Assembly (NCBI RefSeq): GCF_964355755.1
Contig: NC_092679.1
Span: forward strand, 21,948,432-22,012,431
Direction: 5' to 3'
From: Antedon mediterranea
Lineage: Eukaryota > Echinodermata > Crinoidea > Comatulida > Antedonidae
DNA: 64,000 bases
Of this stretch, positions 1 to 50,000 are shown one piece after another. Numbering within the stretch: the stretch's first letter is position 1; each line of letters begins with the position of its first letter. A model generated the notes under the pieces. That model worked only from the letters and a program-made list of their open reading frames with translations. It was not told the DNA's origin and did not search any database. Both the position numbers and the translations under genes were made by a program.

Positions 1-19
1 GTGTCCCACAAACTTGTCC

Positions 20-500
20 CCTAATTCACTCTACCAGGGAAGAGTGAATTCATTCTATCAGGGAAAAATAAATTCATTCTACCAGGGAAGAGTGAATTCA
101 CTAATTCACTCTATCAGGGAAGAGTGTACTCACCAATTCACTCTACCAGGGAAGAGTGAATTCACTCTACCATGGAAGAGTGAATTCACTCTACCATGGA
201 AGAGTGAATTCATTCTATCAGGGAAAAGTGAATTCATTCTACCAGGGAAGAGTGAATTCACTAATTCACTCTACCAGGGAAGAGTGAACTCACTAATTCA
301 CTCTACCAGAGAAGAGTGAACTCACTAATTCACTCTACCAGGGAAGAGTGAACTCACTAATTCACTCTACCAGAGAAGAGTGAACTCACTAATTCACTCT
401 ACCAGGGAAGAGTGAACTCACTAATTCACTCTACAAGAGTGAACTCACTAATTCACTCTACCAGGGAAGAGTGAATTCACTCTTTGTTGGTAGAGTGAAA
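20..500. repeat. Palindromic minisatellite
   Basis: Tandem units of roughly 25-35 bp whose core begins TTCACTCT and ends AGAGTGAA around ACCAGGGA, so each unit is itself a small inverted repeat. Units are separated by short CACTAA linkers of variable length. The last unit (about 476-515) is rearranged, with TCTTTGTTGG in the loop. The array ends just before the splice acceptor of the first UTP25 exon, so it lies in a UTP25 intron. The open frame across it is a by-product of the repeat period. Confidence 0.93.
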
Positions 501-542
501 TCACTCTTCCCTGCACTAACTGATAAATGTATCTTCTCTCAG

Positions 543-3500
543 GTCTTCATATTATCGACAGACGCTCATTTTGAGTGAAGTTTCTACTCCAGAAGTAAAC
601 GCCCTGTTTAACAAGAAGTGTCGAAATATCCTTTCATATGTTATAACAACATACAAATTGCAGTCAAAAGAGCAAAAAGATAATGTGCAAAAAATATTTT
701 TCTCTATTTTTTCAAGCATCTGCCTTCAATCTCTCAAAGCTATTTTCATTTAATCTTCTTGCATTGTATTTTTCTTATTATTTTTGTCAGAGTTTGTAAA
801 TAATTTTTATGAAAAATTAAATATCTTAAGTTATCTATCTTCAATATGGACGGAAATATTAGCATGCTCTCTTTTCTAAATATTTCTAATTATTTATTCT
901 GAAATCTCAGATCGGATTAGTAATAGTACATAATTATAAAAGTGCAGTACTCTTAATTATAGTATAGACTTTATAATACAAGTGATTGAATTGTGACTAG
1001 GACTAAGCTGTATAGTTTGACAAAAAAATGTAATGTGCCCATATAGGGCGGTGATATGCTCAAATATGGTAGTAAAATGACATCATTGTGTCCATATATC
1101 CACATCACCTTTTATTTTTTCACATAAAGTTTGATAAACCTTAAACTCCTTTAATTTAATAAATTTGATAATAAAGATAAATAACAAAAAGATAGTAAAC
1201 AATAAGTAGTGATAACAGTATCAATAAAATGTAATTTAAAAAAATAATTGTAGCCTGTGCACATATAAAAATACTACATTTATAGAAGAAGTAGTTTACT
1301 TAATATGATTATTCACTCACATCCTGTTTGTAAAGTCTATGTTTACATTAGATTATTCCCTTGTTTTGAATTTTGTATACTGGTACTTGTAAAAGGCTTA
1401 ATAACATTATTAATATTTATTTGGATCAACACTTTTTTAACAGTGGCACACATGCTAGATGGTGCGTCCATACAATTACAAAATTACAACAAAACTATAC
1501 AAAAACAATGGATCATAAAACTGAAACTAAAGAGACATTTGTACTATTTGATTAGGAACTTTCGTTCTCAACATAAAATTTGATTTGACATTTTGCATAA
1601 TTACTCAACGTTATAACAAACCATAAATGGAGAAATATACATAAATAAACATTCATATTGTCTTTGATGAAAATAATATTTCAAAAAAATGTCAAACGTC
1701 ATTATCAGTAACAGTAATACAATCATTATGATACAATGATTTTATTTATTATATTTTTTTTTTTTATTGTGAGGTCAATTGATTTATTTTAATTTTATGA
1801 CAGTATAGCATCTTCAGTGCAATTGTATTACAACTGAACATTCTAAATGGATCAGAGCGCTTGAAGAGAGTACTTGGGTTTCTGCCAGTAGTCTTATTAA
1901 TATATATATATTTATTTGAACTTACACCTTTAAATCGGTGGCACTCAATCAATGACAATTGGTGCGTTCTTAAGTAAAAGTTACAAATTCACAAACTTAT
2001 TCCAGATATTATAATAATTAATTAATTAATGCATGTTCAAGCTTACTACTGTAATATACTGAATACTGAAATGCTTTGTTTGTTTATTATCATAATAAAA
2101 TAACATTAACAATAGAAATTTGGCAAATAGTAGTAAGATAAAAAACAGATAAATTCAAATTTATTCACCTCCCTTAGGAGAAACATATTAAAACTGTACA
2201 GCAAAAATAAACACATCAAAATGAAGATTCACACAAATCAAAAGATTAAAATGGTCTTAACAAGTTAAATAAAGTGTAAAAATCATTGTGAAAAGGCAGA
2301 CTTTAACGCAATCACAGGTACCATGATTGACACAATCCACAGATTTTACACATTTTTAAAAGATTATGGCAGTATGTGCTATTAAAGACAATATTATAAA
2401 TAGAAAAGTCATTGCTTTGTATGTTGTAATATAAACAAAAATTCATATACAGAGTACACAGTCAAAATTGCACAAAAGGGGAATACAATACAAGTGACAG
2501 CCTTGGAGTACTCGTATTATTTGTTTCCCGATGTAATTAATTTCTTATGAAATGGAACTAATATATTCAGCTTTACAAACAGGTCACCATGGAAACATTA
2601 AACAATATGGAACCTAATAGCATCTTATGCCAATGAGATTTTAAGTATTTTGCATAAATTTTTTAAGAAAAATGATTCTCAATTGGTAATGTTTAATCTA
2701 CAATTGTACATTTTTGGGAAAAAAAATGTTTTCCTTAATGAAAATACATTTCAGTGGCAGAGTTGCTGTGGAAACAAAGCATATTGAATCTATTTGCCAT
2801 GTGACAACTCAACTCCCCCAGGTAATGTATGTTTGTGATTTGTTACTATGGCAAAAAGGTAAATATAACCATATACACTACATAATACATTTTTTTAAAT
2901 AGATAAAATTAAGGTCCTGTTCACACCAGCTCTGTCTACACTATCAAAGTTTATGTGACAAAAAAAATGTGATGTACCCATAATATGTCACGTCATATCA
3001 CTAACATATTTGGGCACATCACATTTCTTTTGTAAAACTAGTTTGATAGTGTAGACAGAGCTTTATCATTTAACGTGTCCTCCATTTTCACACCTGCAAA
3101 AAATAACAAGCATGTATGCGGAGTATGAAGGCAATTTTGTGAGAATTCTCCCAATATTTTACAGGGGAGCTCTAGTTGTGAAATTTGGGAGAAAAGCATA
3201 CATCCACAAAAGGTTTAAAAGTATTGGAGCATCGCAAGTTGAATGATTGAATGCTCTAATGAAGCAATCAACACAAAACATTATTATTAATTATTATTAT
3301 TATTATGAACATAGTTTTTGAACATAAGGAAGTGTAAACAGCTTGTGAATATGACCTTTAATAACATTTAATGATTACCGGTAAAAATTCAAATATTGAC
3401 TGTTTATGAATGATTAATTTGCTGGCGTTGAATCATTGACTGCACTAATAAAGTAGTCAACACAAAACATTATTATTATTATTATTGCAACATTACTGAT

Positions 3501-6500
3501 TGTAAACTTATCCACAGTTTCCATCTTGGATCATTGCCAGAGGCTAGGCCAACGTGAAGCAAAGCCATTAAAAAGGGCAGCAATAGACAATAGTACTGTA
3601 TCGTAGTCTATTACAATATAACAATTGATTTTTTTGCTTTGAGTCATATAGTTAATCAAAATTCATTATACTAGATGGTACGTTCGCTTCGCTCGCGTAC
3701 CATCTAGGTCGTGCCCACAGATGGTTCTCGAATACATAATAATGTCAGCGTTAAAAAACTGATCTAGGTCGTGCCCACAGATGGTTCTCGAATACATAAT
3801 AATGTCAGCGTTAAAAAACTGACGATTTCAAATGTACGTACAATAATACATGTCGTTTACACAGGAACGAATAAATAGACACTGACTTATGTACTCGACT
3901 AAAATTAGCACCCTGGGAATTACTTCCGAAAGAGAAACTTGTCAAAAAATGAGACCAATTGTTTAAGTCAAATTTAAACAAACTTAATTTGTGTTTTGTA
4001 TGTAACATTATAGGATTGAGGGATGGGGAAGAGGATGGGTGCAAAGAGGAACAATTTTTAAATATATTCTTTATCCATTTAGTTTTCATGTTTTACAAAT
4101 AATATACCACTAAACACAGTAAAACATTGCGATGTAATACTTTGTTGAAACTATCAGTATCACCGTCCTAGTAGATTGAAATAGCAGTACATGTAACGAT
4201 ACATCACTACGACGTGTATGTATGTTTATATAATGTAAAACAATTTGTGAAAACCACCTCTATTCGGGGAAAATCATAAATTCGATTTAATCGTCAATAA
4301 ATATTAAATTTTCTAACTCAACTTAATTAGTAGGCCTAATGGTTTTCAATTGTTTCTTAGAGCCAAGTCATACTTAAGTTGTTTCCTACCCTACCCACCA
4401 AAGTTGTTTTGCGTTTAGGGCATATGATGCACAGTAGGCCTATCAGGCTCTACTATGGCTTTACAACGCTACTCATGCCAGTGAAGGAAGGGTGATGATA
4501 TGGGTGGTTTAACTGCAATAATAAAGATTTGTACATACTATACGGCGACTGAAAACGCTAGCACTAGCTCATTATCCGTCTAAAAAAAATTATATCCAAC
4601 CTCTGCAGCACAGATTGAAAAAAAAAATGGATCGAATTTCTGTTATGAGTATAAAGTACTTTCCTTTACGACGCCTAAGGGAATAGACACTTGTGGAGCG
4701 ACACAGAGATTGGAATGTTCCATTCATCGCAAATCAATACATTTGTATAAACGTATATTAAATCTATCAAAAGAGTATTTTTTTAAGAAAATCGGCCTGT
4801 CTTCAACATTATGATACTGTACTCGAGCTGTTCAACCGGTTTTCAGCTATTAAAAACAATTATCGTAGGAGGAGATAGGAAAATGCGAAGCCTCCTCGCA
4901 TTTTTGTGGCGGGTATTTTCCAAGATGGACATCCATTAGACAGTGTATACCACGATCGGAAAACACCCTTATTTGGGGCAAATCGTTGAACCTAAATTCG
5001 TTTTAATCGTCAATAACTAATTATCTAACATAATTTAATTAGTAAACAGGGTTACGTCAGGTGGTTAAAATCAGTACCGAAAGTACGAACCAACTTTACA
5101 TACCATCGAGTAAAAATTATAAAAGTAAGGCGCGATTTACCGAATTTTGCCCTTACGTAAATTTATATATAGATTATTCACACATAGATTATTATTATTA
5201 CCACCTTCGTCAAGGAGGTTATTGTGACCAACCTGGTTTATTTGTTTGTGTATTTGTTTGTCTGTTAGCAAGATTACATGTACAGCTACTAAATGGATTC
5301 TTGACAAATGTGCACCATTTAATTTTTCGTAGGTTTAGGACTTGAATCATGTTCATTTTTCACTCACACTCATAAGTAATTGTTTGCTTCATACTTAAGG
5401 TTTTCCATAAGTTAGAATGTAACTGCTACTCGGAAGATGCACAGAAAAGATTTGATTTCTTTATCAAAAAGGTAAAATTATTAATTAACACATTTCTGTG
5501 AAAGATGTATTGTCTCCCAAAAACATGAAAAATGAAGATTTATAAATCATAGTTTAAATAGGCCATTTTGCAGTTTTAATATTAGTTATTCACCCCAACC
5601 CCCCTCCCCCCCCCCTATTTCACTTATAAAAAGATTTTTGTTTATTAAATTAGGTACTGCCACAATATAGTGATGCTGTGATGGCAAGAACTCTAATATT
5701 TATCCCGTCATATTTTGATTTTGTGCGCGTACGTAACCACTTCAGGAAGAACGAGTTGAACTTTGCTCAGATATGCGAGTAAGTTATGAACAATGTTTTG
5801 TTCTAATTTTTTTTTCAAAAAATTAAATCGTTGATAAGTACTACATTAAAATATTTAAAGGCCGCACTTAATTGATTTTTTCTACTACACTAAAAGCTTT
5901 CTGTTTGTTCTCAATCTTTGGACAGATTAGATAACATTTTAATGTAGATATTCTGTAATCAGTTTCCGCTGAAATTGATATGCAATAAAACATAAGGTTG
6001 TTACGATTTTGTATCTGAAGGATATTCACATATTGAACTTTGTCTACACTATCAAACTAGTTTGACAAAACAAGTGTGATGTACCCAAATATGGTAGTGA
6101 TATGTCCAAATATAGTAGTGATATGACATCATCCACATATGGGCACATCACATTTTGTTGTCACTTTATTTGTAAGTTGTATATTAAGGAAGCCGGCATT
6201 ACTGCGATAAGTTAGTTAGTGTGTAAGGCACAAAAAGAAGAAAAACTCAAGTTTGAAAACCTTTTAATTTATTTTTCTCTTTGGTCTCGAAGAGTACATA
6301 AGAATGAATATATAAAAAATATAATTTTTACTGAGACACCCCTATTAAGGGACACTATGACCAACCTCTATTAAGGGAACACCACTTTTAAAGGAGGAAT
6401 ACTACAACGGACCTCTATTCAGGGGACACTTTTTTGTATCCTGATTATGTCCCCTTATGCCTGGTTCCCACTAGAGACGCAACACAAGGACGTAACGCAA

Positions 6501-8771
6501 TGTAAGTGCGTTGAACAATTACAAGCGATGGATTATTCAAATTGTTGCTTATCATTGGTCAACACGCTTATGTCCTAGTGGGAACCAAGTTTTAATATAG
6601 TTCTACTTTATAACACTTAGGTATACAAGTCAACCAAACATTTCTAGAGCTCGTCACCACCTTGTGAAAGGAACAAGACATCTGTTGCTTTACACTGAAC
6701 GCTTTCATTACTATCACAGGTAAATCATTAACTTTCTATAATAGGGAGTTTTCGATTTGCGACCTAAAGGTCAGGTCAATTTACATGTCACCAGTCGTTG
6801 CCTGGTCCTAGAAAAGATCAAATATGCGCAGAAACGTGCAAATATTTCTGCATGCGCGCATTGAATAAACATGACATTCTTTGGTCGTCGCAAATCAAAA
6901 GCTTCCTAATAATAAAAATTCGGTCAATAAACCATTTCATTATTTACCTCTTTGAAAAAGGATTTTTGTAAAAATTGTTTTGTTGAATGCCATTTTATTG
7001 TCACATAATAGTTATTCACACATTTGAATTTGCCAACAAATTATTTCCTGAAAAAATGTAATTGTAAAAAGAATCAGTCAACAACGTTTAATTTAATTTA
7101 TTTTTGTTTATGAAAACTACAAAATTTAATTTTATTCATCTTTTATGTTTTGTGGCACAATTCATCTTTAATAAATATTAATATTATGCAAGTCTGTTGC
7201 TTCCAGTATATTCCTTTCGGTTTCCTTTTAGTACAGTAGTAGAAAATAATTTGTGACTATTGAGGCGTTTTAGAAAAATGTGTATCAGTAGAGTTGGCTG
7301 TAATAAATTCAAATGCGGAAATAATTGCATTACAATACCCCTATTATGAAATGTGTTTCATTGTTAATTATTGTACAGTCAACTCTCCCAATACCTTTGT
7401 GCTGATTTTTCCGGAAAGTCTGGTATTCAGAATGTGTTCTTATTGGATAATTTACATATACACATTGGATAAATGAATTTGGGACTTTTTGGAAGAGAAA
7501 AGTCTGGTTTTGGGAGAGTTTCTGTTTTTCAGAGAGTCTTGTATTGGGAGAGTTGACTGTACTAGTTTAGTACTGTAATTCATATATGTACAGTAACTGT
7601 ATTGTGGAAGCATTTTAGTGATTTTTATTTTATAGAATCGCTATTAAAGGGACACCTTTAGGACAAAACAGGGTGTCTCTAACGAGAGGCACTTGACAAA
7701 AATAATATGACTAAAACAATATTAATATTATTAAACTAATTATTAAGTATCTTGAATTGTATTTAAAAAGATAAAATATAATGACAACCAAAAAGGCAAA
7801 GTTGTAAAATAAACATATCAATAACTTTGTAAGGAATTAAATTACAGTAAATAAATATTATAACTTCACTGACGAGATCTAAGATTGAAACAGTATTATA
7901 TATAAATCCAAAGGCAAATTCCTGAAAAAACGACAATTCTGTTGGTATCAGTGGCTGGATCTCAATGGAGATACAAATAAATAAATTAAAATGATGTAAA
8001 ATTAGTATTAAAATAAGTAAAATAGCCAGAAAAAAAAAATATATATATATATATATTTCTGTACATATGACATTAAGGATAAACTCTTCGGTTTTTTCCA
8101 CTCCACTGTGTTTCCGAAGCCATAACTAAAATTATCAGTTAATTATTTTAACCAATCAGATAATTAATAAAAAGTGCACAGTTCAATCATTACCATATCG
8201 TAATAATAATTTGTTGTTCTGGAAAAAGGTTAACAATGATGGCAGTACAGTAATGGGATAATTATCTGATAATCTCAAGCAGGATCGGTTAAACCCCGTT
8301 TCCACAGAACCCCTATCATCAGTTAATCTTTGTATTGGATAATTATCTGTACATTTTTGGCTGTGGAAACCCAACCTTCGAGTAAGACTTCATATAGCAT
8401 GTTATGTTTCAGTTAAGCCCCGTTTCCACTGAACCTCTATCAGTTAATTTTTGTATTGGATAATTATCTGTAACGTTTTGGCTGTGGAAACACAACCTTT
8501 GAGTAAGACTTCATATATCACGTTATGTTTCATTCACAGGTACAAGTTGAAAGGAGTTCGTCACATAGTTTTCTACCAGCTTCCAACTTATCCACAATTC
8601 TTTAGCGAACTTTGCAATATGATTGATAACCGATCAACAAACAATTTCAACTGTTCCATTATCTATTCAAAGTTCGATGCGCAACGATTAGCCGGTGTAG
8701 TAGGAACGGAACGTTGTTCGCGTATGTTGTCCTCTGATAAAGACACGCATCTGTTGGTGACTGGTACATGA
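543..8771 (+). CDS. UTP25: UTP25 / DIEXF homologue, C-terminal six exons (5' end outside window)
   Basis: U3 snoRNA-associated protein 25 (digestive organ expansion factor), a nucleolar small-subunit processome factor with a helicase-like fold. Exons: 543-625, 2748-2821, 5400-5471, 5654-5778, 6621-6719, 8540-8771 (TGA). Phases chain without error and give about 228 residues, the C-terminal third of a family protein of about 750. Matching blocks in order, by comparison with the remembered human protein: [10 protein letters not shown] and [13 protein letters not shown] and [39 protein letters not shown] and [11 protein letters not shown]; then [27 protein letters not shown] and HLLVTG at the end. 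The first exon begins with one base completing a codon, so upstream exons exist. The first intron appears to be U12-type (separate entry). It converges with sialyltransferase copy A 356 bp downstream. The identification is secure; only the short exon at 5400 rests mainly on phase and position. Confidence 0.93.
626..2747 (+). other. UTP25: U12-type AT-AC intron of UTP25
   Basis: The intron starts ATATCCTTTC directly after codon CGA plus one base, an exact match to the minor-spliceosome AT-AC 5' site. At 2731-2739 lies TTCCTTAAT, matching the U12 branch consensus TTCCTTRAY, and the intron ends AC at 2746-2747, ten bases after the branch adenosine. Joining here gives a phase-1 junction reading KKCRNFSGRVAV, the same length as the KYCFNYQGQVAV segment remembered from the vertebrate protein. 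No GT-AG pair restores this spacing. The intron also carries a MITE-A copy (1003-1140) and otherwise plain AT-rich DNA. Confidence 0.88.
1003..1140. mobile_element. MITE-A copy 1 (diverged)
   Basis: Diverged copy of the palindromic element described at 63270. It keeps the TTTGACAAAA shoulder, the central AATATGGTAGT and CATCATTGTGTCC blocks, and a right arm ending AAAGTTTGATAAAC. The outer CTCTGTCTACAC ends are eroded. It lies within the U12-type intron of UTP25. Confidence 0.7.
2928..3063. mobile_element. MITE-A copy 2
   Basis: Nearly complete palindrome with left end AGCTCTGTCTACACTATC and right end GATAGTGTAGACAGAGCT. The middle carries CATAATATGTCACGTCAT. Flanked on the right by TA. It lies in the UTP25 intron between the exons at 2748 and 5400. 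Confidence 0.88.
3668..5190 (+). mobile_element. Non-autonomous DNA element with hairpin end (family B, longer copy)
   Basis: The left end is a strong hairpin, ACTAGATGGTACG pairing with CGTACCATCTAG around GTTCGCTTCGCT (about 3670-3707). Next come two perfect tandem copies of a 60-bp block (3702-3761, 3762-3821). The sequence from there to about 4210, and again near 5110-5170, is homologous in reverse orientation to 11890-12256, which ends with the same hairpin. I see no transposase frame. The right boundary is set only by where the similarity stops, so it is approximate. Confidence 0.6.
3702..3821. repeat. Perfect 2 x 60-bp tandem duplication
   Basis: Positions 3702-3761 and 3762-3821 are identical over all 60 bases, from ATCTAGGTCGTGCCC to AAAAAACTG. 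The other copy of this element (about 12170-12240, reverse strand) has only one unit, so the duplication is specific to this copy and recent, unless it is an assembly artefact. Confidence 0.95.
5195..5340 (+). repeat. Fragment of a CTCCGCC-AAGGAGG type repeat
   Basis: ACCTTCGTCAAGGAGGTTAT followed by a TTTGTTTGT-rich stretch and GTTAGCAAGATTAC closely resembles the start of the longer repeat at 56250-56890. It lies just upstream of the UTP25 exon at 5400. The short open frame over it is not supported as coding. Confidence 0.6.
5500..5640 (+). mobile_element. Half copy of MITE family C
   Basis: GATGTATTGTCTCCCAAAAA and the following bases match the left part of the complete element at 13497-13804. 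The right part is missing and is replaced by a C-rich run (about 5594-5616). It lies between two UTP25 exons. Confidence 0.65.
6036..6168. mobile_element. MITE-A copy 3
   Basis: Left end TTTGTCTACACTATCAAAC, two ATGGTAGTGATATG-like units, then CACATATGGGCACATCAC and a truncated right arm near TTGTCACTTTAT. UTP25 intron. Confidence 0.8.
6335..6458. repeat. GGGGACAC dispersed repeat (family E)
   Basis: CCCCTATTAAGGGACACTAT, CCTCTATTAAGGGAACACC and a closing GGGGACAC-TGTCCCC pair mark a member of the family that is expanded in tandem at 34211-35275. Other pieces lie at 7637-7695, 8774-8905, 33412-33750 and 58890-59075. Confidence 0.65.
6461..6590. mobile_element. MITE family D, compact copy
   Basis: TIR pair CTGGTTCCCACTAG and CTAGTGGGAACCAAG enclose GACGCAACACAAGGACGTAA on the left and a diverged AACACGCTTATGTC arm on the right. 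Same family as the larger element at 16478-18999. UTP25 intron. Confidence 0.85.
6742..6909. mobile_element. Short TIR element
   Basis: Left arm TAGGGAGTTTTCGATTTGCG matches in reverse the right arm CGCAAATCAAAAGCTTCCTA. The interior holds TGCGCAGAAACGTGC and GCATGCGCGC. About 168 bp, non-coding, in the last UTP25 intron, starting about 22 bp after the donor at 6720. Confidence 0.8.
7374..7561. mobile_element. Short TIR element, TACAGTCAACTC ends
   Basis: TACAGTCAACTCTCCCAATA at the left is the near-perfect reverse complement of TATTGGGAGAGTTGACTGTA at the right. The interior has sub-repeats built on AAAGTCTGG. Non-autonomous DNA element of 188 bp in the last UTP25 intron. Confidence 0.88.
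8289..8537. repeat. Two-unit tandem repeat abutting the last UTP25 acceptor
   Basis: Units 8289-8412 and 8413-8537 (about 124 bp) share the CCCCGTTTCCAC start, GTATTGGATAATTATCTGT, TTTGGCTGTGGAAAC and GAGTAAGACTTCATATA. The second unit ends ATGTTTCATTCACAG, which is the splice acceptor for the exon at 8540. The first unit ends ATGTTTCAGTTAAG, an unused acceptor-like site. Confidence 0.85.
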
Positions 8772-9127: not shown

Positions 9128-12100
9128 TTAATAGTTACACCGATCTGTTACTAGTCTTACAACGCCATCTTTGTTCAATTGCGTCAGCGAAACATATTCC
9201 TGGGGCATCTTATGGTGACTATGGGTGTAGTTATATACCACTGTTTCGTAATAATGATGCTGTATAGGTCGGCCATGCGTGTCTTCGTAGAATGGAAAAA
9301 ACCCATATAAACTGATTTTATCACAATAGTAATTCATAGCAGAAAACATATTTATACCACTGGAAGGAAGACGTAAATGCCACAACCTAAAATAAATGAA
9401 ATTGAGTTTATTTATTACACCTTATTTATAGAGGGTGACCCTAAACAGCGTACAGTATGCTGACAATCAAGGGGGCCCTCTTGATGAGTGACAGTGGCTG
9501 TGTGTATACTAGTACACCGGGGTAAGCCCCTACTTGTCTCGAAAGATGTACTAGGTTCTTTAAAGTGCTCATGAGCCATAATAATACTGACAAAGTATGT
9601 GTTACTGTATATAAAACATGCAACGGTGGAGTAAAAAAGAAACGCCGTATTTGACATTATTTTTACTTTATGCTTATTTATATTGATAAACATTATAGAA
9701 AATGATACGAAAAGAAAAATAAAGAATTTTGGCTAATAATCGCTCTGATTGGAGAAGTCTTGTGAAGTGCGCGTTCGTGATGATAATGATGATGATGATA
9801 TTGCGATACACATAGTGATTCAGCATTTCACATGTAACCCCTGGATAATACAGTACTACTGCATATAGTACTACATATAGTATAAACAAAACGAAAGATA
9901 TGAAAGAATAAAACAAACTTACGTTTTTGACAACCTCATTGGCGATGAAAGTGAGTAACCGATCCTAATATTGTCAAATCCCAACTGCATACCAACCGCT
10001 TTCAGCGCAGCTGTACCGGTGCCACCTGCCCCCAAAGGGTACCACATAATTGTGTTTTTAAAAGTTCTAAACGTCTTCAGTTGATGACTGTCTAATACCA
10101 TTCTTTTCCCTCCAAGACGTCGTTTGAGCTGAATCGCTGACGCACGATTAAACGCCATTATACTAGTTTTTTTACCGACATCACTTTCAAATCCTAAAAT
10201 CCGTGCAGAGTTTGCGCGTACGACCAAATCATGTGCGTCGATTTCGCGTCCACATCCGCTATTTAGTAAAATCCCAGAATTTCCGATGATTGCGCATGTG
10301 TCGTGATGTTGCAGGAATTCCGTGCTATTCGCTTTTTTAAGTTGTGTAAGATTTGTGTCGAATTTCATATCTGTCAGCGATGTGTTATGTTTGTATACAA
10401 TCAATGATAATTTTCCATCCATGTATTTTTTTATTTTTTCCCTTAGAAAAGACAAAACAAATTTAAAATGTATTACTTTAATTTAATCTAATAGAAGAAT
10501 AAGTAGCATGCCGTGAGTTACCCTCCTCCCCTCCCCCCGCACACCCTCTTTTTTTAAAGCGGAAAGTTACCTCATATTTTCTACTGACGTCATGTTGATG
10601 TTGCTCCAGTCAATAAAAACATCCCCTGATGATGTTGGTGACGGTCTGGCTTTCGGTGTTGATGACCAGATGTTATGGTTTCTTTTAGAAGATGCCGGCG
10701 AAGCAGGTCGTAAGAATTGGCTATTGTTTTTATTAATTTTTAAAGAATATAGCATTCGATTCGTCGTATACAACCTATATAAAAATAAAAAAGAGATATA
10801 GCTAATTGTACATTGTTTAAAAAAAAAAATGTTCTGCCTCTCAGACGTCCCCGGGACTAAAAAGTCGGAATGTAGTCATTGCGAGAGACAAACTCAACTC
10901 CACTCTGTTAACTGGTTAAATAGAAAAAAAAAAACCATTTTCCATTAATGCAAATGGTGTGGGTAACTGCATAATTTATAATTGTTGTTTAGATACATGG
11001 GGAAAAGCCGCCCAACAAACGGAGGATGCTGGGCTCCGGAAATCAAAGGGTTTATCTGTGACTTCGACACGATTCCTGGTACTGTATAGTAAAGTTGGCA
11101 TTTGTCGCAGCCAGACATAAGCTCAAAGGACTGTTACGAGTTCCTATCTTGGCACAGCGAGTTCAGTGTCCAGCGGCCTTGGTTAGACCACTGGAGCTTT
11201 CATGGTACTCAAATCCGTTCAAATACTGACGCTTACCCTCCGCGTAATACTAAATAGAGATGACAGAGATATTATAGTATTATATTGTATTATTATATAT
11301 AGTATTATAGTTCACTATACTATCTCTATGGTAGAGAACCTATGGAACAGCACTAAGGTAGTTCCCGTTGAAGAATTATTGTTATCCGAAAGCTCGGTTC
11401 TTTCCTGTACCAGCTTTTTGCTTATTTTTAGTCTAGTCGCGTGCAACGCCACTCTACAGCTCACTGTGTCGGTTGGTCGGTCGGTATTAACACTAACTCA
11501 AATTTTAGCACGCGACTGCAGCCATATACATGGCCTCGTTCTCCATTGAGATCCAACCAATACTCGCAGAAATGTAAAAAATGTGTTTTTCCGGTAATTT
11601 GCCTTTAGCCGTATTGTATAATACAGCTGGTTCAATAATGGAATCAATCATAACTTAGATTTAAACGTTCCTTGATCAATGCCTATTGTTTGTGTTATTT
11701 ACTATTTTATATATTTACATCAACATATGTTCTTCCTTGACATTGTAATTACATTCTATGTACACACGTCAAATTAACCTAAATAAAAGTAAAACACAGT
11801 AATTGATCATGAGCAAAACACTTTTCATTTGAATTGTATCTTCGATCGATCGAAATAATTTCAAGTGCTGCCTATCGGAGTAAAACACGCATCTATATAT
11901 AAATTTACGTAAGGGCAACATTTGGTAAATCGCGCGTTATATAAACGTCATAGTGGTACTGTATCGTTGCATGTGCTTTACTATTTCAATCGACTATAAC
12001 AGGGACAGTTTTAGTTTTTTGGACTCATTTTAAGACAAGTTTCTCCTTCGGAAGTAGGCCTAATTCCCAATGGGCTAATTTTAGTTGACTACATTAATCA

Positions 12101-20169: not shown

Positions 20170-23100
20170 CTAATAATTACATTGATCTGTTACTAGTCTT
20201 AATACACCATCTTTGTTCAATTGCGTCAGCGAAACATATTCCTGAGGCATACTGTGTCTGCTATCAGTGTAGTTATATTTCACTGTTTCGTAATAATGAT
20301 GCCGAATAGGTCGACCATGCGTGTCTTTGTAGAATGGAAAAAACCCATATAAACTGATTTTATCACAATAATAATTCATAGCAGAAAACATATTTAGACC
20401 GCTGGAGGGAAGTCGTAAACGCCACAACCTAAAAAAAAAAAGAAAATTTAAAAGTAGTAAAAATACTGAGAAATGATTGTTACGTACAATTGAACTCTCG
20501 TCACTCTGAAGAGTACCGGTAAAGTTTGGTTTCTCGCAAGAACGTAAGCCGCACCGGAAGCGAATTGATCAATCACAAGAAACGGTTCGAATAATCCATC
20601 GCTTGGATTGGCCAATTTGCTTGCGTTCCGGCTTACGTCAGATTGCGTTGCGTTGTAGACTAGACTAGACACTAGAACGTAACGCAAGGACGTAAACGCA
20701 ATGCAAGCGTTTTAACCAATGACAAGCGAAGTTATAGACAGTTAGCAATCACAAGCGAATAAGCCATCGCTTGTGATTGGTCAATTCACTTGCGTTGCGT
20801 TACGTCCTTGTGTTGCGTCGCTAGTGGGAACCACGCTTTAGATCCGCGAAAACGCAACATTATGTTATGCACATATGGGGAAATATTATAAGATGTCTAT
20901 CATCCTGACCTGACATATAATTGTGTATACTCACGAAATATGTCTAATTTCTGTCATATCAAAGCAATCTAACAACATAATGCTGAACTCCGGAGATCAA
21001 AGTGGTTATCTGTGGCTGCGAGACGATCAGCGCGCGCTGCGAGGAATATGTACATAGTCACAGCAGTGTTGGTATTTGTCGCTGCCAGACATAAGATCAA
21101 AGGACTGTTACGAGTTCTTATCTCGACAAAGTAAGTTCAGTATTAAATATCTTTTTATTGGTCATATATTTTTATTAGTCATATTATACAGTAGTCTAAA
21201 CGGTGTACCAGATATTATCAGTGCTGTATTTCCATATACTATAATATTGATAAAGACGATAATAAGATATTATCTTATCAATATTCTTTAAAAGAATATT
21301 TGGTATGATACATGTGATATGATATTACCAACTATTCCTGGGCAAATCGAGATACAGTATGGGTTGGTATAAACTGTAGGTAGGCCCTATAGTGGTAGCA
21401 TATTGAAAATTTATTTTTTTGACATGAGATGTCATCAAAGTAAAATGGCCGTATCCGAAGAACATTTTAAGAGAAAACTGGTTAAAAAAAATCATGTTTT
21501 AAAGATCCAGGCGACCACATGATGATGATGACGTCAGGTGATTGAAACATGCGATGTTGAGTTTAGCCTATGCTACCAAATATTGAAAGAAAGACTGGGA
21601 GAAAATAATGACATATATTAGAAACTAAACTTAATTTCCAAAAGGTTTCTTAAAAAAGGTTTAACCAACTTACTCTTTCGACAAATCCATCGGCGTTGAA
21701 ATTGAGTAAGCGATCCTAAAATTGACAAACCCCAACTTCATACCAACCGCTTTTAGCGCACTTGTTTCTTTGCCACCTGCCCCCAAAGGGTACCATGCAA
21801 TTGTGTTGTTAAAAGTTCTAAACATCTTTAATAGACCACGATCGACTATTTTTCTCCCTCCAATTCGTTGTTTGAGTAGACGCATAGACGCTTGATTAAA
21901 CGCCATTATACTAGTTTTTTTACCGACATCATTTTCAAATCCTAAAATCCTTGCACAGTTTGCGCGTACGACCAAATCATGTGCGTCGATTTCGCGTCCA
22001 CATCCGCTATTTAGTAAAATCCCAGAATTTCCGATGATTGCGCATGTGTCGTGATGTTGCAGGAATTCCGTTGTATTCGCTTTTTTAAGTTTGTTAAGGT
22101 TTCTGTTGAATATCATGTACTTCGCGGGTGTGTTGTGTTTGTATATGATTAGTGATAATTTTCCATCGATGTGCTTGCTAATGTTTTGCCTTTGAAAACA
22201 AAGAGTCATACAAAAGATTAGTTACAGTATTATATATTATTAAAAAATGTATTTTTATATGGTTTACTACGGCAGCTTCTAAGTGCCATCCATTTGGCGA
22301 CTTGTCAAGATAATTTATCAAGTCGACATAAATACGACTATTATGTCGACATAGTGACCATTTTGTCGTCATGGCGAGATACATTATCATGCCAAGTTGA
22401 CTTCACAAAAATTGACAAGTGGGTGACACTTAGAAGCTTCCGTAGTTTACTGTATAAATCATACGCTATTATGGAACTAATCAAATTATTCATGGTTTAT
22501 TTCAAATTAGTAATTAATATAACAATAAACACAGTATTTTACTTTTGGCAACTCTCTGGTTTGGAATTTATTTCGGTATTTTAAACCTACATCAATCCAT
22601 TCAGCAAATTGAAAACAAAAGTAGGCCTAATTTTAAGAAAAATGTTAAATCATATTTTTTTTCAACCAAATAACTATAAGTCAATCATAGTCTGTTTTAT
22701 ATATATTATTGTTTTTGTTATATTTACGTGTTTAATGCAATAATTTGTAACGTTTATATTTTTTATTGTAGATTATAAAAGGATCCCAATGGAAATAAGT
22801 TAATAAGCTTTATTGGTTATCATGGAAAATCTTTTATAATGGATTATTTGTAATGTCAGTAATTTATGTTTGTATGCATTTTTTATGATGATTTTCCTAA
22901 TAAATTCAAAACAATAGGTTTAACGGGGCTTAATCTCATCATCTGATAACCTCTTCTTGATATCTGTTTATATAAGTATCCCTGTTTTAGAGCCGAAAGT
23001 TACCTCATATTTTGCAATTACGTCATGTTGATGTTTCTCCAGTCAATAACAACATCCCCTGGTGATTTTTGTGATGGTCTGGCTGTCGGTGTTGATGACG

Positions 23101-25625: not shown

Positions 25626-26857
25626 GTCTGTAAGATAAGATAAGATAAGATAACTTTTATTGATCCTCAAAAAGGAAATTCATTGCTCGTCATAATAACA
25701 AAGAAAACACTATAAAAACAAATATAGCATAAAACCATTCATATAAAAACATCTAAAAAATTACAATATAAAATTATCTTCTTGACTTCCTGTTGTACTG
25801 GATGATACCGGAGGGAATAAAGGATTTAGCAAATCGATTTGTTTTCACACTGAGGAGCCTCAATCTACCACTTGGATTAAGTTGGTCTATGATCACTTTG
25901 TGGAGAGGATGAGAGGCATCCGACTCAATGCGTTCGAAATCTTTCTGGAGGTGTTCTAGGTGCACATCGGTAAAGGAAGGCAGTTCCAGACCAATCATTT
26001 TACCAGCCCGACGGATGAAAGTTTCAAGGCGTCCTTTATTCCCTCCGGTAACATTACCAGCCCAACAGGAGAGGCAATACGTCCAAACACTAATAACGGA
26101 TCTATAGAACGAAAGTAACATCAAATCACAGGAGTTAAATTTATATAAAGTTCTCATACAATACATTCTGGGACTTAATTTTTTGCTGATGAAGTCTATA
26201 TGGTCTCCCCAACTCAGTTTATTATTGAAAACAATTCCTAGATACTTGTACTGGTCAACAATTTCAATTTCTTTACCTTTGATAGTGATTGGTTGAAAAT
26301 TAAATTTATGTTTAGTCCTAAAATCAATGATCATCTCCTTTGTTTTTGATGCATTTATTTGGAGATAATTATCGTCACAAAATTTAACAAATCTTTGTAT
26401 TTCGCTACGATAATTTTCATCATTGTTTGAAACTATGAGACCAATAGTACTAGTGTCATCAGCGAATTTAACAACGGGGCAAATCTCATCATTTAAAGAT
26501 CTGTAATCCGCCGTATACAAGGAATATAATTTAGGTGCGTTGACAGTACCCTGAGGAACACCGGTGTCAGAGGTTACGATTTCTGACTTAACACCATTAA
26601 TATTAACAAATTGTTTTCTATCACAAATGAAATTTAAAACTAAACGAACAATCGGACGGGGAAACTCCATATTCAACATTTTGTCTGCTAAGATATGGGG
26701 TTGTATGGTATTAAACGCAGATTGAAAATCAAAATACATAATACGTGCCGAGTGGCCTTTCTTTACATTATCTAGATGTGAATACAATTTATGTAGTTTA
26801 AAATAAATCGCATCACTGGTACTACGGAGTGATCGGTAAGCAAATTGCAACGGCCCG
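25626..26857 (-). mobile_element. 5'-truncated LINE with open reverse-transcriptase frame
   Basis: A continuous minus-strand frame (26850-25774, 358 codons) encodes the centre and C-terminus of a non-LTR reverse transcriptase: motif A (MYFDFQSAFNTI), motif B (TGVPQGTVNAPKLYSLY), motif C (VKFADDTS), then thumb and a C-terminal region (YKYLGIVFNNKLSWGDHI). The N-terminal fingers and any endonuclease are missing. The 3' end is a run of TTATC units (25633-25655), as in CR1/L2/Rex1-type LINEs. TAGGCCTATA directly flanks both ends (25616-25625 and 26858-26867), a probable 10-bp target duplication. The frame lacks stops, so insertion looks recent. The clade assignment is tentative. Confidence 0.9.
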
Positions 26858-26869
26858 TAGGCCTATATA

Positions 26870-27256: not shown

Positions 27257-29168
27257 CTTGATTTGATTTGAATTTATTCGGAAGTACACAAATATACATT
27301 ACAATTGGTAAACAAGAACAATTAAACCATACGGTAGTCTTCCATGGATAACCCAAAAAAGCCGGTAAATATCATTCCAGCTTATTTCCATTGGGGTCCA
27401 TTATATACATACATACAAACAATAAAATATTAAACCAGTAAAACAATAAAACATAGCATATAAAAGCATACTGTATATAAAATTGATTATTAAAATAATA
27501 TTTCATGTCATTCTTTAAAATCTTATAGTAAGTTAAAATTTATTTATTCATGAGACGTTGCTAAATATTCCTTTACTTTAAATCTAAAATCTGTCTTGTT
27601 AAAAATGGTTTTTAAAATGTGTGGTAATAGGTTCCATTGTTGTGCTGCTGTGTAGAAGAATGTGTCTTTGATATATGTGTCTGATTTAGACAGGTAGAAT
27701 GTATGAGAGCTTCTTCTTGTGATATTTTGGATGGTGGATGTCTTGGAGAAGTGTGTGTACATGTATGGAATGGCTTGGTTGTTGAATATTTTGTGAACAT
27801 GGTTTAGTTTTAATTGTTTAAACCGACTTTCAATATTAAGTTGACCAATAGATTTAAGTTCTTCCTTACCAATATGGGACCTGTTATCCCAGTTACAAAT
27901 CAATCTGGCAACTTTATTTTGGGCAACTTGAAGTTTTCCCTATAGTAACTGGTAAGTCCAGAATACCATGCACAACACGCATAATCAAAGTGACAAAGTA
28001 TGAGGGCGTTACTTAAAAGTTTACGATTTGATCTATTAAGATAACAACTTTGTCGATACAAATATTTAAGTCGTGCATACATTTTTGCAAGTACGGTTTC
28101 TACCATGGTTTCACCACGAAGATCTTCATCCATATAACATCCTAAGTATTTAACAGAATGCTTCCGTCATAGTTCTTTACCATTACAATGTACTTTAAAT
28201 TCTTCAACATTTTTAACTTTTTTCTTTGGGCCAAAAGAATAGCCTCAGTTTTATCAACGTGTAATGAAAGTTCATTATTGATTAACCAAGTGTGACATGA
28301 ATCAAGGTTGGTACTTAAAGAATTTGCAATATTTTCCGGGCTGTTACCAGAAACTAATAATGCGGTATCATCTGCATATAAGATAGTTTTACAGTTCGTA
28401 CTAATAGAGATATCATTTATATAGCATGTGAAAAGCAAAGGACCGAGTATGCTTCCTTGTGGAACACCGGTATTTATTAAACAATATTTTGATTGAACAT
28501 CATTCGAACAAACTACTTGTTTACGGCCAGTTAAGTATGACTTAAACCACTTTAAAGAATTAGGACAAACGCCCATTACACTAAGTTTATCAAGAAGTAT
28601 TGAATGCTTTACGGCATCAAATGCCTTTCTTAAGTCTAATAATACCATTCCTGTGTAATTACCTTTCGATGATTCATATCGAATGTAGTCGTGAATATAA
28701 ATTAAACATGTTTCTGTAGAGTAATCTCCTCTAAATCAAGATTGAAAATCATCTACCAGCTTGGCTTTATTTAAATAAACAGTAAACTGCTTGTAGACTA
28801 TCTTTTCCAACAACTTTGATATTACAGGAAGAACACTTATGGGTCTATAGTTACTTGCATCACTTTTGGAGCCTTTCTTATAAAGTGGAGTAATCTTAGC
28901 GTACTTAAATTCATCTGGGAATATATTACATGAAATAGAAAGGTTAGTGATGAAGGTGACAGGAGAAGCAATTGCAATAGACCCATCTTTAAGAAGGCAA
29001 GTTGTCCAATCCACAGCTTTTACCAATTTTCAGATTTTCAAGCTCCTTCAAAATCTCTTCCCCAGTAACTTCTTTAATTTCAAATTTATTTTCGCTCACT
29101 TTCTTGTCATAATAAGCCTTAATGCTGTTTTCGAGATCTCAAACAAATCTGGACAGGGTTTTAGCTGA
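27257..29168 (-). pseudogene. Degenerate LINE reverse transcriptase
   Basis: Four minus-strand fragments form one broken non-LTR reverse transcriptase. 29026-28736 has the fingers (YRPISVLPVISKLLEKIVY). 28648-28142 has motif A (LLDLRKAFDAVKH), motif B (NTGVPQGSILGPLLF) and motif C (LYADDTALL). 28133-27900 and 27903-27544 are the connector and C-terminal region. Breaks: one in-frame TGA at 28738-28736, where the family usually continues QSGFR, and frameshifts near 28140 and 27900. The 3' end is marked by short GATTT-type repeats near 27257-27272. It is a different family from the LINE at 25626. Upstream endonuclease sequence was not found. Confidence 0.88.
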
Positions 29169-47000: not shown

Positions 47001-50000
47001 TAATTGAATTAATTGTACTGGGATAATAATGTTCAGCGCCTAGAGGTTTCACAACATTAGGCGCTATATAAATCCAGGATATTATTATTATTAAAGCATT
47101 TTTTCGGGCAAAAACATGCCACCCACCTATCATCACTAGATCTCTGTGACCTATTTGAAAATCTTCCCCCATTTCAAATAAACATTTGATATTTGATGCT
47201 TGTGTGAAAATGAGAAAGTACTGTACAGTAATGGGAAATGGGTATGTCTCGTTTTCTTCTAATAGCCATCTCCACTGTCATCATACGGATCATCCTTTAC
47301 CCATGGTGGGCTTGTATCCGCATCTGATATTATTATCCTATCTTGCCTTCGTTCATCTGGCGAAGATTGTTTTGTCTTCTGTTTCTCCTTGGAATTTTTC
47401 ACCCTACTCGGTCACCTATTTTATGTTTTCCCATACTCATGTACAGTACTGTACTCTCATAGTCATAGATTTGTTCGAAAATGAAATTTGGGATATATAA
47501 AGCAAGATATATGTATCGTACCATACCTACTGTATGGTTTATTTCTGCTTACTAATTACATGTTTTAATGGATACCAGCATCAGTCAGTATCTACCGTGA
47601 TTATACACATTTTTGTGAGCTTTAAATAAAATGCTGGTAATGATTTGCAGCCGTTTTTTTTTTAGGTGGAGTTGTAAATGTAAGAGCTGACAAGAATAAA
47701 AAAAATATGATTTATTTGGTTATTTTAAATTTTTACTTTTCTTTGTAGCTTTTATTGTCTCCTTATTATGCCAAGCAAAATGAATTTCCATATTAAATGG
47801 GTTAATAGCATTTCTTGAATCTTGAATCCATGAAACATAAAAAATGATGTTTATCTCCAATTCAAGTTGTCTTGGCTAAAGGTTCAGTGTACTCATGTAC
47901 GGTAGCTTATCTAGTGTATTAGGAGGAAGTGTACTCCTTTTTCTGGTTCATTTTTAGTCATTTATCCCTTATTATAAATACACTTCACTTTGTAACCAAT
48001 TCTTTAATCCAAATTTCACTTCATTTATTCATCTCATTAATACATTAAAACATATACAAAGAAAAACCAAGAAACAAGAAATCTAAAAAGTGAACTTAAT
48101 CTACTATCAAGTGGTTTAAACAATTTAAAATGGAACACAATATAACATTGATAAATAAAAAATATGTCATCATTCACAATCAATGGTTTGTTTTAATTAT
48201 GTAAAGCTCTGTCTACACTATTAAACTAGTTTGACAAAAAGAATGTGATGTGCCCAAATGTGGTAGTGATATACCCAAATATGGTAGTGATGTGCCCAAA
48301 TGTGGTAGTGATATGCCCAAACATATATGACATCATGATGTCCATATATGTATGAAATAAAAATAATGTTTTTTCTCTTGTGTCTTACAGGTTTTGTAGC
48401 CAGTTTACTGAGTAAAAACAAAGAGACCGCTATCGAACAGTTACTCTCGCATCTTCCGTTGTTACAACCAGGAAACGTGGAAGCTAAAAAACAGTATTTA
48501 AATATCATCCCAAAAATACTTGCTCACTCACTAGAGGGCAGTATTCATCTTGATGAATGTCGACAGTTGTTATCGTATTTACTCATACACCCGGCTTTGT
48601 CAAACGACGAACGTGGATCGTTAACATACTGGTTGGGACGGTTGGACGAACATGCGAACGGACATGGCGTCTACCCACCGAGGATTTCTCCGGAGGGTTC
48701 ACCGTCTACGTCGCCGTATCAATCAAACGGTCACTATAATAACGAATCTAGGAATTTTATGCACGGGAGTAAAATAAATGGTTGGCGAGACTCTGGTATT
48801 GGCGAGACCACGTCGGGAACATTAAATAGTTATAGCAGCAGTGCTGGAAATAGCTTGACCCACCCTCCACTTACGTATACGGTGTCCGCTCCGCCAGCAG
48901 TTAACGTCCGTGTTAGTGGTCCACCTTCTACTTCGTCTATTCCTACAAGTATGTACTTTATATTAAAAGATAATTTTACAATATTTTAATAAAATGATTT
49001 TTTTTTAGGTTTAGAAAATACAGTACTGTAGATCCCTATTATAAGTTTGAGTTCTGTATCTCAGTTCTGTATCGCCACATACAACAATATTTGCCCAGTA
49101 TCATAGGAATATTGGTAATACAGCTTCTCATGTATTACATGTCTCCTAGTATCATGTCCGACTGTATCATGTAAGGTTAAAGGTTATGGTTGATGATACT
49201 AGGTGATACTGTGAAACACATTTGATGCTGTATTATGATACTGGTGAAATCTACAGTAGATACAGTATCAAGAATTGGGTATCCCAAATTAAGGGATCTA
49301 CAATAGTCTATTAATTAAGTTGGTGACATATACCGTATATTTCGGTGTATAAGTCGCACTTTTGACACGCAAATTTGACCTCTAAATTAAGGGTGCGTCT
49401 TATACACCGAACATATTGTGCCTCACCACACAGATTGTACATAGGCCTAAGGCTAGGCCTAGGCTATCGTCACCTCGTTTGCTAGGCCTGAGTAGGCTAG
49501 GCCTAGCTAAAGTAACTAACTAACGTAACGGCAACCTGCTTCTGCCTAGTTTTCAAGGCATTTTAGCATGATGTTATACTAAAAATATGATGAAAAGATT
49601 TGTTGATTATGGCGATTAAATTTCCTTTGTAAACGTTTACGTCGTACGATTGGAATAGTATTTATTTATACAGTAGTTATACGCACGATCGCCGTACCCC
49701 CAGCGCAAGCCCTTCTTTGGCGGCCACATGGTGTACGGTATTCGACTAGTATATTCTCCAGGTGATTATAGCATGGACCTAGCGTACACACTTCTCGGAT
49801 ACATAGATACTAATCGAATACGATTGTCCGTGAAAACGTCTGCCCTCTCGAAATGATCGAGCGAGGCTAGTCCACATACGTGTTACACACATGGTTATGC
49901 ACTCGATGTTGCGGCTGTTGAGGCTGGGCGCGGCCGAGCCTAGGTAAGAAAAACCTAAATAAAGGACGCCGTTGCAGATATAACAAAATATATTATTACA

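Follow-up and report, generated by a model that had tools for sequence, protein, structure and literature searches.

The stretch of DNA analysed here, a window of 64,000 nucleotides (64 kb), begins at C10:21948432 of an assembly of 354,431,138 bases (354 Mb) in 18 contigs and carries the end of a UTP25 gene on its plus strand, within positions 1–8771. Six UTP25 exons lie in the window, at 543–625, 2748–2821, 5400–5471, 5654–5778, 6621–6719 and 8540–8771, the last of these containing the stop codon. Five further exons lie upstream in the same assembly (C10:21929655–21947952), and all 11 join into a single open frame of 434 residues that ends in a stop codon. The exon at 543–625 is preceded by a ctctcag acceptor, continues the frame of the preceding exon, which lies outside the window, and supplies 27 residues plus the first base of an N codon; the exon at 2748–2821 adds 24 residues in frame and is followed by a gtaatg donor. 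The other four window exons are likewise part of the joined open frame.

Identification of the gene as UTP25, proposed earlier by a sequence-only reading of the window, is upheld by Pfam. The window part of the gene alone matches Utp25_C (PF06862, 6.6e-65) and UTP25_NTPase-like (PF22916, 5.1e-8), the latter including the exon at 543–625, and the PF22916 match improves to 2.8e-44 once two more upstream exons are added. Genome profile searches with the two families returned 3 and 6 matches, one of them under the cut-off, all on C10 and all in this gene; they thus showed neither a second gene copy nor an intron-less one from which the spliced join might be read. A PDB search with a 227-residue reading gave no match at E 0.01. 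With the 434-residue reading, the best of the three hits within E 10 had an E-value of 0.45 and none was meaningful, so there was no relative of known structure to align. By tblastn, no plasmid sequence matched the C-terminal part, as expected for a eukaryotic gene. A search of the assembly for COX1, aimed at the mitochondrial genetic code, gave no match.

The gene model consists of the 11 exons found, without a start codon or the 5′ end of the gene. Between the first two exons found, within a repeat-rich stretch of 5.1 kb, the model probably lacks a small exon of about 22 profile columns, and the first of the ten introns in the model is therefore probably two. Neither the missing exon nor the absent start codon has a bearing on the intron described below. 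About 4 kb of repeats lie between these two exons (L008, ~1790–5798), where, judged from the frame list only, open frames recur in 19-bp steps. Within the window, a tandem array at 23–481 occupies the end of the intron that precedes the exon at 543, its 71–481 portion repeating a 32-bp unit about 14 times, and a perfect 60-bp tandem duplication in two copies is found at 3702–3822.

Elsewhere in the window, two similar exons of glycosyltransferase family 29 (sialyltransferase) lie on the minus strand at 9919–10482 and 21670–22221, about 11 kb apart, and are perhaps tandem duplicates. Two minus-strand open frames at 25774–26862 and 28142–28735 match reverse transcriptase (RVT_1) and are presumably retrotransposon pieces. 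A plus-strand open frame of 216 residues at 48339–48989 has no Pfam match at E 0.001; it resembles the start of Smaug/SAMD4 proteins.

The feature of main interest is the intron between the first two UTP25 exons of the window. It spans 626–2747 (2,122 nt), is in phase 1, begins with ATATCCTTTC and ends with TTCCTTAATGAAAATAC. Direct reading confirms both its AT and AC ends and the exon boundaries that had been proposed, at 543–625 and from 2748 onwards, and joining the flanking exons keeps a single UTP25 reading frame open. Introns of the U12 type carry the 5′ splice-site consensus RTATCCTTT and the branch-site consensus TTCCTTRAY close to the 3′ end. Scored by the number of letters that fit this consensus, out of nine per site, the intron reaches 9/9 at its 5′ splice site (ATATCCTTTC, 626–635) and 9/9 at its branch site (TTCCTTAAT, 2731–2739). 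The nine other introns of the UTP25 model are all GT-AG and reach 4–6 of 9 and 5–7 of 9 at the respective sites, so that full U12 motifs occur in one of the ten. Minor introns tend to avoid phase 0, according to passages of PMC7367187 and PMC10639083, and the phase of this intron fits that tendency.

The branch motif had been placed ten bases before the intron end. It is indeed present near the end, but TTCCTTAAT stops 8 bases before it, and its two A residues, 2737 and 2738, precede the last intron base by 10 and 9 nt, respectively. According to passages of PMC3584512, either A of the branch site is able to act as the branch point, and the branch site is optimally placed 11–13 nt from the 3′ splice site; the distance here is a little under that optimum, and the counting convention may shift it by one. 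From the branch site to the 3′ splice site the sequence is GAAAATAC, with no distinct polypyrimidine tract, as for U12-type introns.

Introns with AT and AC ends may also be removed by the major spliceosome, as is known for sodium-channel genes (passages of PMC2831892), and the ends alone would suit such a U2-type AT-AC intron. The same source describes G at position +5 in that class, whereas here position +5 is C within a 5′ splice site that fits the U12 consensus throughout, and the branch site also fits at every letter. We regard U2-type removal as exceedingly unlikely.

Chance occurrence of the motifs was modelled with 20,000 simulated pairs of 200-base flanks drawn from a first-order Markov model with the statistics of the window (not exact dinucleotide shuffles). 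ATATCCTT was present in 137 of the donor flanks, and 43 of the acceptor flanks had TTCCTTRAY with AC after it; no pair of the 20,000 had both, and the product of the two rates gives an estimate of about 1.5e-5 for their joint occurrence near two exon edges. In the window itself, ATATCCTTT occurs once over both strands, at 626, with 0.9 expected per strand, and TTCCTTRAY with AC occurs five times over both strands, with 0.55 expected per strand. Either motif alone is thus unremarkable in this A+T-rich window; what is notable is their placement at both edges of one coding gap. Inspection by eye gave no convincing intron at the GTATCCTTT sites (32216, plus strand; 37033, minus strand) or at the branch-like sites with AC at 11733 and 18729 on the plus strand and 31569 and 6191 on the minus strand.

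Inside the intron, the stretches 1874–1999 and 2151–2425 belong to dispersed repeats with copies elsewhere in the genome, 74–99% identical. A genome search with the intron as query returned the intron itself and at least 41 partial matches, within intron bases 1249–1420 and 1501–1800, these counts being lower bounds with 40 of 2,784 candidates scored. Among the partial matches listed, none touches the intron ends.

The junction can also be judged at the protein level. With donors at 560–759 and acceptors at 2560–2820, 126 joins over six dinucleotide classes keep the frame and are free of stops (12 GT-AG, 23 AT-AG, 37 AT-AC, 12 GC-AG, 22 GC-AC and 20 GT-AC). Nine were scored against Pfam, comprising the proposed AT-AC join, six of the 12 GT-AG joins, one of the 23 AT-AG joins and one other AT-AC join, with no GC-AG, GC-AC or GT-AC join among them. 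The proposed join, with its AC acceptor at 2746–2747, reaches 152 bits to UTP25_NTPase-like, and its residues 1–94 align without gaps to columns 173–266, the last column of the profile. The eight rival joins score 132.3–145.6 bits and end 4–11 columns short, none reaching column 266. Scores to Utp25_C are equal in all nine (99.2–99.4 bits). In the proposed join, nine residues separate the end of UTP25_NTPase-like from the start of the Utp25_C match, so no extra exon is needed between the two. The margin of 6.4 bits over the best rival is modest alone and counts together with the motifs. A residue-for-residue alignment across the junction to the vertebrate protein had been claimed; here the Pfam profile stands in for that protein, and the proposed join is the only one of the nine with a full-length alignment.

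These scores bear directly on a reading in which the major spliceosome removes a GT-AG intron at nearby sites, for example from GT 618 to AG 2754 with the loss of about five residues. Twelve GT-AG pairs in the ranges searched would keep the frame, which gives this reading some room. The six of these 12 that were scored, however, reach 132.3–145.5 bits to PF22916, against 152 for the proposed join, and a GT-AG intron would not account for the U12 motifs found at both intron edges. We therefore consider it very unlikely.

A different acceptor for the same 5′ splice site deserves separate consideration. AG 2753–2754 lies 7 nt downstream of the AC, within reach, and ends 16–17 nt from the branch A residues; alternative 3′ sites have been observed for U12-type introns, according to passages of PMC3584512. 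A U12-type AT-AG intron with AG 2754 as its main acceptor would, however, shift the frame, with the joined reading stopping at residue 44 and the product truncated, and the same source describes AT-AG combinations as disfavoured. Its use as the main acceptor is in our view highly improbable. Among the neighbouring sites, AG 2760 leads to a stop at residue 42, AG 2762 keeps the frame with loss of residues, and retention of the intron brings a translation stop at 751–753. A quality-control or regulatory outcome of intron retention or of alternative acceptors is possible. In one such scenario, AC 2747, near the branch site, would compete with AG 2754, yielding either the full protein or a frame-shifted message, and together with slow AT-AC splicing this might tie assembly of the ribosomal small subunit to minor-spliceosome activity; we consider this scenario very improbable.

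The genome encodes the RNA components relevant to the proposed AT-AC intron. Rfam matches over the cut-offs comprise U12 (125.7 bits), two U11 genes (88.6 and 82.9), U4atac (97.6) and U6atac (136.6), with a second U6atac match barely over its cut-off (33.7 vs 33) and lacking several stretches; a scan of the 64-kb window itself at gathering scores gave no match. The branch-site stretch TTCCTTA has its complement, TAAGGAA, in the genome's U12, and the 5′ splice-site stretch CCTTTC has its own, GAAAGG, in the genome's U6atac; both U11 genes start with AAAAAGGGC. A gene for CCDC84/CENATAC, the sole minor-spliceosome protein searched for, lies on C8 (5 matches). Passages of PMC8280824 report that this protein promotes AT-AN minor introns in human cells, where its depletion affected 92% of A-type and 24% of G-type introns.

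Taken together, the motifs, the frame, the profile alignment, the snRNA genes and the complementary stretches for U12 and U6atac are the evidence for the AT-AC reading. We conclude that 626–2747 is very probably a U12-type AT-AC intron of UTP25, with removal by the minor spliceosome in vivo predicted from these sequence features. The earlier assignment to the U12 type is accordingly well founded in the perfect scores at both motifs, the best Pfam alignment across the junction among the nine joins scored and the complete set of minor snRNAs in the genome. The intron would separate the exon in which the NTPase-like domain of UTP25 finishes from the one leading on to the C-terminal domain. Its 5′ splice site would be paired by U11 and then by U6atac snRNA, and its branch site by U12 snRNA; removal of the intron from AU to AC would then restore the N codon and the CRNFSGRVAV run.

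A gene-prediction pipeline that takes GT-AG only would be predicted to mis-join the exons 543–625 and 2748–2821. If the same intron is present in UTP25 of other animals, a ribosome-assembly gene would join those dependent on the minor spliceosome, which would extend a known pattern slightly. Among open-licence full texts, supplementary gene lists aside, no paper was found that links UTP25, DIEXF, C1orf107 or ‘digestive organ expansion factor’ with U12 or the minor spliceosome; as such lists fall outside this search, we make no claim that the intron is unreported. Among the papers listed by a broader search of these texts, one names both DIEXF and UTP25 but neither U12-type nor minor introns. 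Nor did open-licence full texts yield a paper on U12-type AT-AC introns that names Strongylocentrotus; four mention sea urchin alongside U12-type and AT-AC introns. The sequence-only reading called AT-AC introns rare even among the U12 type, which overstates the case, since they make up about a quarter (22–26%) of human minor introns according to passages of PMC10639083, PMC6717393 and PMC8280824 and Table 2 of PMC7367187.

Compared with known systems, the intron shares its AT and AC ends with U2-type AT-AC introns and differs from them in carrying C rather than G at +5, together with full U12 motifs. From animal U12-type AT-AC introns, as collected in IAOD, U12DB and MIDB, it departs in the distance of the branch A from the intron end (9–10 nt, against a reported optimum of 11–13). 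It agrees with them in its ATATCCTTT 5′ splice site, TTCCTTRAY near the end and terminal AC, in its non-zero phase and in being a single such intron among GT-AG introns. The UTP25 AT-AC intron is thus an unexceptional member of an established class.
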